64,000 bases of DNA, taken from contig NZ_MPIN01000002.1 of NCBI RefSeq assembly GCF_001887355.1, forward strand, positions 968,510-1,032,509. The letters are read 5' to 3'. The stretch comes from Cystobacter ferrugineus. Its GTDB lineage: Bacteria > Myxococcota > Myxococcia > Myxococcales > Myxococcaceae. The notes beneath the pieces were generated by a model. The model did no database searches, was not told the origin of the DNA, and saw only the letters and a list, made by a program, of their open reading frames with translations. A program made the translations under genes and the position numbers. Shown here in pieces: positions 51,428 through 54,042 of the stretch. Each line of letters begins with the position of its first letter. Position 1 is the first letter of the stretch.

Positions 51428-51495
51428 GGGCACAGGCGGAAACGAGGGCAAAGAAAAAGCCCAGCAACCCCTCGGGACTGCTGAACTGCCGAGTG

Positions 51496-51583
51496 TGGAG
51501 GCGGCGGGAATCGAACCCGCCGCTCGGGAGCTTCCGGCAAAAGGGTACGGCACTCCCATAGCGGGCCTGGTTCGCCCGCCCCC
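51496..51583 (-). other. tRNA/tmRNA-like 3' end, possible attachment-site remnant
   Basis: On the minus strand GCGGG-TTCGATT-CCCGC (51520-51504) is a perfect T-arm, followed by CGCCTCC and A (51503-51496), a 3' acceptor strand. GGGGGCG at 51583-51577 would pair with it with one G-U pair. Between them there is no normal D-arm or anticodon arm, so it is not a standard tRNA. The T-arm and acceptor match the 3' end seen in many tmRNAs. No encoded CCA follows. Integrative elements commonly use such 3' ends as attachment sites. Confidence 0.4.
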
Positions 51584-51594
51584 CTTCGCGCGCT

Positions 51595-51672
51595 CCGGCG
51601 CCTACAGCAGCTTGTCGATCGTGATGGGCAGTTCACGCACGCGCTTGCTCGTGGCGTGGAAGATGGCGTTGG
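51595..51672. repeat. 78-bp direct repeat of the paoC 3' end, copy 1
   Basis: Same orientation as 53965-54042 and identical at 73 of 78 positions. The match ends abruptly at TTGG on the right and at CCGGCG on the left, next to the tRNA-like element. Confidence 0.85.
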
Positions 51673-51943
51673 GGGAGACCTGCTCCCGGGCGAGTGCCTG
51701 TCTGTCATTGGCCTGCTCGCCGGGGGCTGCTTCCCCGGGTCCGGCGTGCCGCTTTTCCGGACCCGAGGCTCGTCGCTGGAGCGAGGTGAGGGTCTCCTCG
51801 GAGATCCGGCCGCGCTCCCGGAGGAGTTCCAAGGGGCCACGCCCCAGGCGGCGGGCCTCTTCTCGTATGGAGTCCTCCTCTTGCCGTGTGAGAATGCCCT
51901 CCTCGAGGGCAATCCAGATCTCCGTCTCGTGGTCAGCGTGCAT
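51602..51943 (-). CDS. Chimeric ORF: kinase-like N-terminus fused to molybdoenzyme C-terminus
   Basis: The frame of 113 residues begins MHADHETEIWIALEEGILTR and continues RISEETLTSLQRR, the style of N-terminal segments that precede myxobacterial Ser/Thr kinase domains. It then switches, after EQV, to [24 protein letters not shown], which is the C-terminus of the paoC-type gene ending at 53972 ([20 protein letters not shown]). The matching DNA is 51595-51672 against 53965-54042, 78 bp with five mismatches. An AGGAGA ribosome site precedes ATG 51943. Whether the fusion protein is made or useful is unknown; it may be a scar of recombination. Confidence 0.6.
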   Translation of the reverse strand: MHADHETEIWIALEEGILTRQEEDSIREEARRLGRGPLELLRERGRISEETLTSLQRRASGPEKRHAGPGEAAPGEQANDRQALAREQVSPNAIFHATSKRVRELPITIDKLL

Positions 51944-52246
51944 GGATTGGCTCTCCTGGGGACGCGCCCGCGCGCAGGTGCTCGGCCACCGGCCCGCGAA
52001 TTATAGCTGGGGGAGGGGCCCTCCTGCGAGCGACGGGCTGGTGCCGAGAGGCAGAGGCACGCCGTTCCGGCCCTCTCCTGGCACCCGCGCCAAGCAAGGT
52101 GTGGAGGCCCGGCCCGTCAGGCTTGATCCCGCGTTGGAGCGCTCCCTCATGCCGCGATGGGCTTCCAGACGCGCTCGTAGGTACCCGTCCGAAGTTCGAC
52201 GTGGAGGTAGCGGCTTATGGTGCCCACCTTCCAGTCGCGAATCCTT
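51944..52246. other. Gap between immunity-like gene and chimeric ORF
   Basis: About 300 bp. A minus-strand frame ends VGTISRYLHVELRTGTYERV-WKPIAA at 52147, which looks like the tail of a lost gene; nothing else is supportable. Confidence 0.3.
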
Positions 52247-52708
52247 CTACTCCAACTCCTTCCATATGTGCTCCAATGAATCATTAGGCCGACCCATGAA
52301 GGCATCAAGCAGACGTTCCTCGACACCGTGGGACTCCCAAACAGCCGCTGGCTCAAGCCCAATACATTCTTGAGGGGACGCCTCTCTCGAGTTGCCGAGG
52401 CTGTCGAAAACCCAGCAGCGGCGGAGCGGGCCCACTTCCATTCTGAATTGGACAATGGGTTGAGTCAGACGTTCCTCAATCTCTCTCCACCCAATAGGCT
52501 CCCACGATTTCGGGTATGGATGCTTGACGGCAATCCTGAAAAGAATGGGCTTTGATGCGATCTTGTCCAAGTCCGAGTCTGGGCTGGTGGTCCTGTAGTT
52601 ATAGAAGGCGTCAAATGGTAGTTCGAGAGCCCTGCCATAGCCAAAGGAGCCGTCTGCCAGGGGGATTCTCAAGAATGAACCTGGTTTATGTGCTGGCCGT
52701 AGGCGCAT
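52247..52708 (-). CDS. Imm26-like immunity protein
   Basis: Cytoplasmic protein of 153 residues. The N-terminus KPGSFLRIPLADGSFGYGRA has the signature of Imm26-type immunity proteins (G-FxIPL-DG-xGYGR). ATG 52708 lies 3 bp from the stop of the toxin-like frame, so the two are co-translated in the order expected for a toxin and its immunity protein. By analogy it protects the producer and kin by binding the toxin domain. GC is well below the neighbourhood average. Confidence 0.75.
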   Translation of the reverse strand: MRLRPAHKPGSFLRIPLADGSFGYGRALELPFDAFYNYRTTSPDSDLDKIASKPILFRIAVKHPYPKSWEPIGWREIEERLTQPIVQFRMEVGPLRRCWVFDSLGNSREASPQECIGLEPAAVWESHGVEERLLDAFMGRPNDSLEHIWKELE

Positions 52709-52711
52709 GTC

Positions 52712-53266
52712 CTAATATCCTGTGTAATGGTGAATCTCGCCCCAGCGAGCTGTAGCAGCGTCGTGAAACCGCCTGCCTCGTGGGTTGTCTTTTGCCACGG
52801 CACGCACGATATTCTCGGTTCGATAAGGTGTGCCTGTGTCGGACTGGGCGCTCCCATGGAAATCTATCAACTGTTGCTCTCTTCCGCGAATCCTCCAATA
52901 TGCTGGGTCATCATATCGCAAATTGTAGTCGACGGCGTTTCCGATGTCGAAGACATCGAGTAGTGCTTTGGCGAATGAAATATCCTTCGGGTCTTCGTTC
53001 TCGTCAATATGATGACTCATGTCTCGGAATTGAATGGCCAGCTGTGCCTGGAGTTCAAGGGGCAGGCCGGGATCAACGATCATGCTGGTTCGCCCCGAGT
53101 AGTAGAGCTTGGTTTTTTTGTTGAGCTTTCTGTAGGTCACATAGAGACGGCCACGTTTGTTTTTGCTTTCCCTGTCGGATTCCGCATCTGGCCGTCCACT
53201 GGGAGAAGCGCGAGGAGAGGACACCGAGCCAGGTTGGGCCATGGGCGCGCTTGTCGTGACTGCCAC
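52712..53266 (-). CDS. Toxin-like C-terminal domain, GIY-YIG-like
   Basis: Frame of 184 residues with GRLYVTYRKLNKKTKLYYSG followed by RTSM, then DMSHHIDENEDP, DDPAYWRIRGREQQLIDFHG and DNPRGRRFHDAATARWGE. The pattern Y-SGRTS ... HH ... RGREQQLID recurs at the C-termini of bacterial polymorphic toxins and resembles a GIY-YIG-type nuclease fold. It overlaps the lipoprotein frame by 130 bp in a different frame. A GTG at 53266 with GAGG just before it could start it separately, but a stop lies 9 bp upstream. Either a frameshift separates one ancestral lipoprotein-toxin into two, or it is expressed by frameshifting or re-initiation. Confidence 0.7.
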   Translation of the reverse strand: MAVTTSAPMAQPGSVSSPRASPSGRPDAESDRESKNKRGRLYVTYRKLNKKTKLYYSGRTSMIVDPGLPLELQAQLAIQFRDMSHHIDENEDPKDISFAKALLDVFDIGNAVDYNLRYDDPAYWRIRGREQQLIDFHGSAQSDTGTPYRTENIVRAVAKDNPRGRRFHDAATARWGEIHHYTGY

Positions 53267-53877
53267 TGTGCCTCAGGCGCCTGGTGAACGAGGATTTCTA
53301 TCTCGATGGTGCGCGAATTCGCAGAGCCCTTTGGAGGATACCGACCCCGAACCCATCCAGAGACATCGCCGAAGTGTGTGTCGTAGAACTTGTCCGCGAT
53401 GTCGATGGGGGTTTGCTCCCCGGCCACAACCGCTTTGACGGTGAAGCAAAGCAGCAGAACGCTGCCTACAGCCGCAACCACCGCGCCACCCGTGACCAGG
53501 GCTTCTCCTACCGCAGCACCGCCAGTGCCTGTTCCTGCCGCAGTCGTGCCGCCTTGCGGCACCGGGCGGAGAATGCCGCGGGGCACCCCATCCCCTGCTC
53601 CTCCGCCAGGAAGCCCTCGCATCGGTAGTGGGGAAGGGGTATGTGGAACCGTCGGCGAGCCCGCCCCCGACGCAGGCGTGGCGGCAGATGCTCCACCTTG
53701 TTCTGCCTGCTCAAAGTCGTTGCTCGGGACGTAGACGCAGTACCTTGTCTGTCCTGAGGTAGGGAGAGCGCTCCGGGGGGCGCTGCTACACCCCACAAGC
53801 AACATGCATGTCAGCAGAGCCACCCCTCTTGGCACCTGGCGCCTCCTGGCATGGGCTCCGCTCGCAAGGCGCCCCAT
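53137..53877 (-). CDS. Lipoprotein carrier part of a myxobacterial toxin
   Basis: Lipoprotein of 246 residues (signal ends CMLLVGC). After TRYCVYVPSNDFEQAEQGGA, a motif recurrent in myxobacterial toxin lipoproteins, comes a Pro/Gly-rich linker, a hydrophobic segment (ALVTGGAVVAAVGSVLLLCF) and IADKFYDTHFGDVSGWVRGR. The last ~43 codons (after 53266) have random-looking composition (CPLLALLPVDGQMRNPTGKA) while the overlapping frame encodes the toxin domain, which supports a frame change near 53200-53290. GC is lower than in the paoC gene next door. Confidence 0.72.
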   Translation of the reverse strand: MGRLASGAHARRRQVPRGVALLTCMLLVGCSSAPRSALPTSGQTRYCVYVPSNDFEQAEQGGASAATPASGAGSPTVPHTPSPLPMRGLPGGGAGDGVPRGILRPVPQGGTTAAGTGTGGAAVGEALVTGGAVVAAVGSVLLLCFTVKAVVAGEQTPIDIADKFYDTHFGDVSGWVRGRYPPKGSANSRTIEIEILVHQAPEAQWQSRQARPWPNLARCPLLALLPVDGQMRNPTGKAKTNVAVSM

Positions 53878-53964
53878 ACGGGATTACAGGAAGGCCGAAC
53901 GGCCGTGTCAACCATGGGACAGCGAACGCGAGGGGCAGTGGTGAGCCTGCCCCCCCCCCGTTCC

Positions 53965-54042
53965 CCGGCGCCTACAACAGCTTGTCGAGCGTGATGGGCA
54001 GCTCCCGCACGCGCTTGCCCGTGGCGTGGAAGATGGCGTTGG
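53965..54042. repeat. 78-bp direct repeat of the paoC 3' end, copy 2
   Basis: Native copy covering the last 23 codons and stop of the molybdenum subunit gene. The two copies bracket the toxin/immunity locus. Confidence 0.85.

Follow-up and report, generated by a model that had tools for sequence, protein, structure and literature searches.

The 64,000-nucleotide stretch of Cystobacter ferrugineus DNA analysed here (the window) carries three consecutive open reading frames on its minus strand: a lipoprotein ORF, a toxin-like ORF, and an Imm26-like ORF. The lipoprotein and toxin-like ORFs overlap in different frames over 130 bp (53137-53266), and the Imm26-like ORF starts 3 bp past the toxin ORF stop, all as the sequence-only reading of this DNA had described. 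Residues 26-30 of the lipoprotein ORF form a lipobox-like LLVGC motif, and GAGG lies a few bases 5' of the GTG at 53266. The GC content is 0.52-0.58 across the toxin and immunity genes, whereas most of the 10 kb around them lies at 0.64-0.72. The features of the locus and its surroundings are listed below; L018 is a 387-aa relative encoded in the same genome, and G001 and G003 are two related genomes.

53877-53137, minus strand: lipoprotein ORF, 246 aa
53272..53877, minus strand: 5' part of the split gene, in frame with L018 residues 1-201
53137..53271, minus strand: out-of-frame tail of the lipoprotein ORF past the frameshift
53266-52712, minus strand: toxin-like ORF, 184 aa, GTG start
52712..53269, minus strand: 3' part of the split gene, consisting of a linker and a putative URI/GIY-YIG-type toxin domain (toxin core about 53158-52745)
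52708-52247, minus strand: Imm26-like ORF, 153 aa
52247..52708, minus strand: the same frame as Imm26 immunity gene (Pfam PF15428), ORF intact, aligned with five relatives
51673..53929, no strand: inserted segment, limits approximate, missing between the corresponding sequences of G001 and G003
53930..54042, no strand: right direct-repeat copy, the 3' end of an aldehyde-oxidoreductase-type gene (56203-53972) with some 40 bp of downstream sequence
51559..51672, no strand: left direct-repeat copy, the 3' end of the same gene, 88% identical over a 93-nt core
51671..51943, minus strand: passenger fragment matching part of a 1246-aa open frame on contig C26 at 92% identity, kinase-like by eye

The earlier recognition of an Imm26-like gene is borne out by its match to Pfam PF15428 (E 2.7e-10, 40.9 bits, above the curated cut-off of 23.3). 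Neither the lipoprotein ORF nor the 184-aa ORF has a Pfam match, and in the NCBIfam scan only the lipoprotein ORF matched, to a lysis-lipoprotein model and well under the cut-off.

The inserted segment, which includes the passenger fragment, has on either side about 114 bp from the aldehyde-oxidoreductase-type gene's 3' end. The G001 counterpart of that gene encodes a 97% identical protein; its 3' end is present once, with no cassette beside it, and G003 likewise lacks the cassette at the corresponding place. The low GC content, the flanking 3'-end repeats, and the absence of the segment from the same place in two relatives agree with the mobility proposed earlier, and fit a segment that would have been acquired horizontally or translocated. 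A search for a tRNA gene as insertion target with ARAGORN found none in the window, in L090, or in 28 other loci.

Several further features adjoin the insertion. A chimeric ORF (51602-51943, minus strand) joins the piece of the C26 1246-aa frame to a copy of the last residues of the aldehyde-oxidoreductase-type gene. Next to the insertion, positions 51493-51583 (minus strand) resemble the 3' end of a tmRNA (RF00023, 29.1 bits, below the gathering score of 47); the RF00023 model also matched archaeal controls, so weak Rfam hits of this kind are not specific. The remnant-like sequence also occurs at the cassette-free G001 locus and has 25 DNA matches in the genome, including itself and the true tmRNA gene. 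Within 1.5 kb of such a piece lie 2 of 12 toxin/Imm26-family loci and 3 of 59 SitA5 loci (65 rows minus 6 second gene pieces), where uniform placement predicts about 0.09 and 0.42, respectively; when Rfam sites are used instead, the counts are 1 and 2 (expected 0.08 and 0.39), and the true tmRNA gene is excluded from the remnant lists throughout. Remnants of this type may mark former integration sites. Another broken family copy, at L084 (G002:C1:6882000-6888000), adjoins a relative (81% DNA identity over 1.26 kb) of the amidohydrolase gene found next to the cassette in the window.

The two pieces in the window are a single gene whose frame was broken near codon 201 by a net deletion of one nucleotide, because four relatives in the same 12.05-Mb draft genome (42 contigs) join lipoprotein and toxin in a single frame. 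These relatives (387, 387, 532, and 414 aa when called from the first start) align over their length, and the two window pieces match L018 at 79% identity over residues 1-201 and 81% over residues 202-387 (E 2e-165, far beyond chance). In the nucleotide alignment with the closest intact relative (the best of 11 tried), a single frame-breaking change, net -1 nt near codon 201, is accompanied by one in-frame insertion, and there is otherwise no lesion in about 388 codons. The 5' part of the gene encodes a lipoprotein signal, a Pro/Ala/Gly-rich region, a hydrophobic segment, and a YDTHFGD motif. Carrier and toxin also share one frame at 13 of the 21 non-Flavobacterium loci found in a scan of named genomes, one of which (L111) is in one frame from residue 85 onward only. 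The proposal in the sequence-only reading that lipoprotein and toxin were once one protein and are now parted by an indel is upheld both by the four single-frame relatives and by alignment with full-length homologues, the suggested means of locating the join, which places it near codon 201. That reading had set against such a fusion the case of two frames kept as separate complete proteins, an arrangement not seen among the homologues. The frame change looks like an ordinary indel.

Pairwise comparison with six intact relatives gives dN/dS values of 0.17-0.22 for the toxin half of the window gene and 0.35-0.65 for the carrier half. The low values of the toxin half suggest that the toxin was constrained until recently, and the break is probably recent. 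In the same six comparisons (52715-53877), dS is lower in the carrier half (0.16-0.28) than in the toxin half (0.55-0.70), which suggests that carrier parts have been exchanged between copies.

The scan of named genomes found the domain at 24 loci in Archangium, Hyalangium, three metagenome-assembled genomes, and three Flavobacterium. In a lake Deltaproteobacterium (L113), a domain with 60% identity to that of the window forms the C-terminus of a 1462-aa RHS-repeat protein and is followed by an Imm26-like gene (40% identity; Pfam 14.7 bits, below the 23.3 cut-off). In Hyalangium (L112), the toxin domain is borne on a different N-terminus, with Imm26 next to it. Two Flavobacterium loci were opened: in L121 the domain starts inside an ORF, in L119 an ORF precedes it, and both ORFs look Rhs-like by eye; Pfam named no family in the L121 ORF. 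By these comparisons the toxin half qualifies as a polymorphic-toxin domain, because the same toxin-immunity module sits behind different carriers (lipoprotein, RHS-repeat protein, and the L112 N-terminus).

The published Tox-URI1 motif consists of Y, YxG, R, [RK]xxE, and N, and Imm26 is listed among the Tox-URI1 immunities, so the pairing itself is already on record (PMC3482391). Y42, Y56, G58, R81, H85, R127, and E130 are invariant over 19 aligned rows, and N152 is invariant in a five-row set, the Flavobacterium rows not reaching N152; the Tox-URI1 set is matched by Y42, Y56/G58, R81, R127..E130, and N152. In the AlphaFold model of the toxin (mean pLDDT 69.5, better in the core), two strands are followed by a helix, a strand, and two helices. 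The first five VIA-align rows are I-TevI (Z 6.0 and 5.9, 85 residues) and a 5hmC-specific restriction endonuclease (Z 5.4-5.5), followed by a row at Z 3.5, where values below 8 can reflect chance arrangement. Both enzymes belong to the GIY-YIG group. Foldseek against the PDB gave no match at E <= 0.001, with I-TevI at rank 13. No Pfam toxin model recognises the window domain, and one of 20 family members matched GIY_YIG_2 weakly (E 0.16); neither the toxin profile nor the Imm26 profile matched any solved-structure sequence (E 10 and E 1). The toxin half is read as a probable URI/GIY-YIG nuclease. The toxin identity first proposed for the 184-aa ORF is borne out by the Tox-URI1 motifs and by the presence of the domain at the C-terminus of an RHS-repeat protein whose gene adjoins an Imm26-like one. 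The toxin family appears narrow, occurring in at least 13 of 96 genomes and at least 4 of 26 genera of the bacterial family when up to 35 candidates per genome are scored. The consulted parts of the publications surveyed mention no lipoprotein-borne URI toxin with Imm26 in myxobacteria.

The N-terminal carrier of the window copy, like that of four intact relatives, has a lipobox with neither Lys at +2 nor Ala at +7 (by eye), which is the pattern of the outer-membrane sorting rule (PMC5562445) and of SitA proteins. Myxobacterial SitA lipoproteins with C-terminal nucleases pass from cell to cell by outer membrane exchange and act on recipients that lack the immunity protein (PMC5562445, PMC8546572), and Cystobacter, Archangium, and relatives are reported to carry traAB alleles (PMC6372800). 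The genome of the window has 65 SitA5_escort matches, 33 of them above the cut-off. Assignment of the carrier itself to SitA5 was tried and rejected: 4 of 13 members matched at E <= 0.1 (best 0.0019), no listed result approaches the 160-bit cut-off for member 1, and a profile comparison gave 13% probability over 31 columns, in the lipobox region. No SitA model other than SitA5 appeared for the carrier in the NCBIfam scans. The carrier part measures about 200 aa versus the approximately 375 aa given for SitA escorts, and in the model of a full-length intact relative (mean pLDDT 43.9) it is uninterpretable. By its sequence features, the carrier is best described as a SitA-like lipoprotein outside the SitA5 family; by analogy, the protein would be delivered by outer membrane exchange.

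The sequence-only reading had also raised the prospect that programmed ribosomal frameshifting joins both frames and holds toxin output low. Consistent with this idea are the otherwise undamaged toxin frame of the window, with its dN/dS of 0.17-0.22 against the six intact relatives, and the location of the break in the linker in three of six aligned frameshifted copies (window codon 201, L080 172, L099 210). However, the toxin lies in one frame at 14 of the 30 genus loci with full-length Imm26, and the breaks in the six aligned copies, a subset of all such copies, are scattered over codons 89, 172, 201, 210, 316, and 324, with sizes in the same order of -1, -2, -1, +1, -8, and +8. The sixth aligned copy, L078, has no clear homology in its first 107-139 residues, and the five frame-breaking indels that it seems to carry are unreliable. 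The window copy would require a shift opposite in direction to those of L080 and L099, and there is no in-register X_XXY_YYZ sequence from 53290 to 53137, the lone heptamer being out of register. With the shift site not conserved and no in-register slippery sequence, programmed frameshifting of the window copy finds no support, and frameshifting as a limit on the toxin is extremely improbable; the single-piece copies elsewhere suggest ordinary gene decay rather than new toxin control.

A 184-aa ORF that is now a separate intracellular gene, with its own GTG start and a toxin-antitoxin-like pairing with Imm26, would account for the GAGG before position 53266 and for the undamaged state of that ORF. 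L080 and L099 are also split in the linker, and each keeps an undamaged toxin half in its own frame (259 and 181 aa). Yet in most of the other broken copies that have Imm26, part of the toxin domain, often the larger part, is gone, the nearest Imm26 in L099 is 1.7 kb away, and a stand-alone toxin gene is seen in no relative except through such a frameshift, so that this arrangement is very unlikely. Somewhat less so, though still unlikely, is an error of sequencing or assembly that hides a gene whole in the living strain: the frame-breaking lesion is the only one in about 388 codons, and the genome is a 42-contig draft. Against an error, the break site is not a homopolymer, and decayed copies are not unusual, many being present in several genomes (one of them a single contig) with larger lesions or deletions. 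The preferred reading remains an ordinary indel, and the window locus belongs to a known kind of toxin, here broken and with its immunity gene retained. The frameshift question is closed as far as sequence allows.

Toxin loss with retention of Imm26 has occurred repeatedly. Among the 67 full-length Imm26 genes of 13 genomes, 34 lie behind an intact toxin, 31 lie behind a broken one or have none before them, and 2 are ambiguous; an intact toxin without Imm26 was found in none of these genomes. The four genus genomes contribute 30 full-length genes (14 after an intact toxin, 16 after a broken or missing one), a count that excludes a divergent Imm26-like match (G000:C2:869859, 75.8 bits), and nine further genomes of the family contribute 37 (20 intact, 15 broken or absent, 2 ambiguous). 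A toxin was called intact in the genus when one open frame spans toxin domain and carrier by tblastn, and in the nine other genomes when the full toxin domain lies in an open frame 360 aa or longer with no internal stop; the calls rest on open frames rather than on individually verified starts or lipoboxes, and one of the 20 intact copies (G041:C10) matches in the toxin part only. The frameshifted L099 copy in G006 has a full toxin domain and no Imm26 within 100 bases, the nearest being 1.7 kb on.

The asymmetry of 16 to 0 in the genus has P of about 0.005 if hits scale with gene length and 1.5e-5 at equal odds; it is by itself no proof of selection for Imm26, because an intact toxin without immunity is presumably lethal. 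At four loci paired between species by their flanks (L083/L023, L021/L073, L081/L074, and L077/L092), the toxin is intact in one member and broken in the other, with full-length Imm26 in both; the pairing of L083 with L023 is less sure, since L023 is a 9.6-kb contig whose flanks partly match L071 too. In a fifth pair (L024/L085), the toxin is broken and Imm26 kept in both, with an Imm26 dN/dS of 0.20. Across copies, Imm26 dN/dS relative to the two nearest neighbours of each is 0.00-0.53, values that mostly average time preceding toxin loss. Imm26 is partial or absent at G000 C3, C10, and C35, G001 C65, G002 3371k, and others. The comparisons suggest that immunity often outlasts the toxin; retention is not absolute, because several loci have lost Imm26 too.

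Orphan immunity after effector loss is known from Vibrio T6SS arrays (PMC5361080) and rAID (PMC12247911). The orphan Imm26 genes L093, L094, and L086, from three genomes, form a clade but have little sequence in common, sharing about 540-590 bp around Imm26 and short scattered pieces only, and are thus no proof of a single ancestral loss of the toxin. L077 (G002:C1:6563500-6571500) has two tandem intact toxin-Imm26 pairs versus the single Imm26 of L092 (G001:C66:558000-566000), where the toxin is almost fully deleted, as if a tandem of the L077 type had collapsed by recombination. In Archangium, L103 and L104 have an intact toxin followed by two tandem Imm26 genes, perhaps the start of a small immunity array. 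A tentative wider interpretation, to which we give somewhat less than even odds, is a dispersed archive of Imm26: lipoprotein URI toxins, with a carrier outside the described SitA families, would have been lost repeatedly, and immunity would be kept by selection because relatives keep the toxin at the same loci, the window being a fresh entry.

We favour, with a probability of roughly 0.8, a contact-delivered lipoprotein nuclease with Imm26 immunity, of which the window copy has decayed by frameshift while its Imm26 frame stays open. The intact relatives would produce one secreted lipoprotein composed of a lipidated N-terminal carrier and a C-terminal URI/GIY-YIG-type nuclease, and Imm26, encoded directly downstream, would protect the producer and its kin. 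The lipoprotein would most likely reside in the outer membrane and be passed on contact to neighbouring myxobacteria in the manner of SitA, and the transferred toxin would cut nucleic acid in recipients without Imm26; it probably serves to kill close relatives. In the window, the small frameshifting deletion near codon 201 parts carrier from toxin, and no delivered toxin would be expected. The Imm26 frame, if expressed, could still protect against relatives that have the toxin. With this locus, the likely contact-toxin repertoire of Archangium-group myxobacteria gains a URI/GIY-YIG-type toxin that is borne on a lipoprotein and paired with Imm26, and orthologous loci that are either intact or toxin-dead and immunity-open provide natural allele pairs, with which the selective value of an orphan immunity gene can be put to a direct test.

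In their structural aspect, the best matches of the predicted toxin core are I-TevI (PDB 1ln0, 1mk0) and the 5hmC-specific restriction endonuclease (9u7u, 9u7z, 9u75), which differ from it in role and share 10-16% identity at moderate Z (5.4-6.0). Among toxin systems, Tox-URI1 with Imm26 (Zhang et al. 2012, PMC3482391) is similar in the order of the URI/GIY-YIG motifs, the C-terminal position, the Imm26 gene directly downstream, and the RHS carrier among relatives; in contrast, the carrier here is mostly a myxobacterial lipoprotein, and no current Pfam toxin model fits the domain. SitAI (PMC5562445, PMC8546572) shares the lipoprotein N-terminus without Lys+2 or Ala+7, the C-terminal nuclease-type toxin, the immunity gene directly downstream, and many copies per genome, whereas the N-terminal part here is about 200 aa rather than about 375 aa and its homology to the SitA5 escort is confined to the lipobox region. 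The Vibrio T6SS arrays (PMC5361080) and rAID (PMC12247911) likewise keep immunity after or apart from the toxin; here, in contrast, the loci are mostly scattered single lipoprotein-toxin loci, and orthologous loci differ in state between species.
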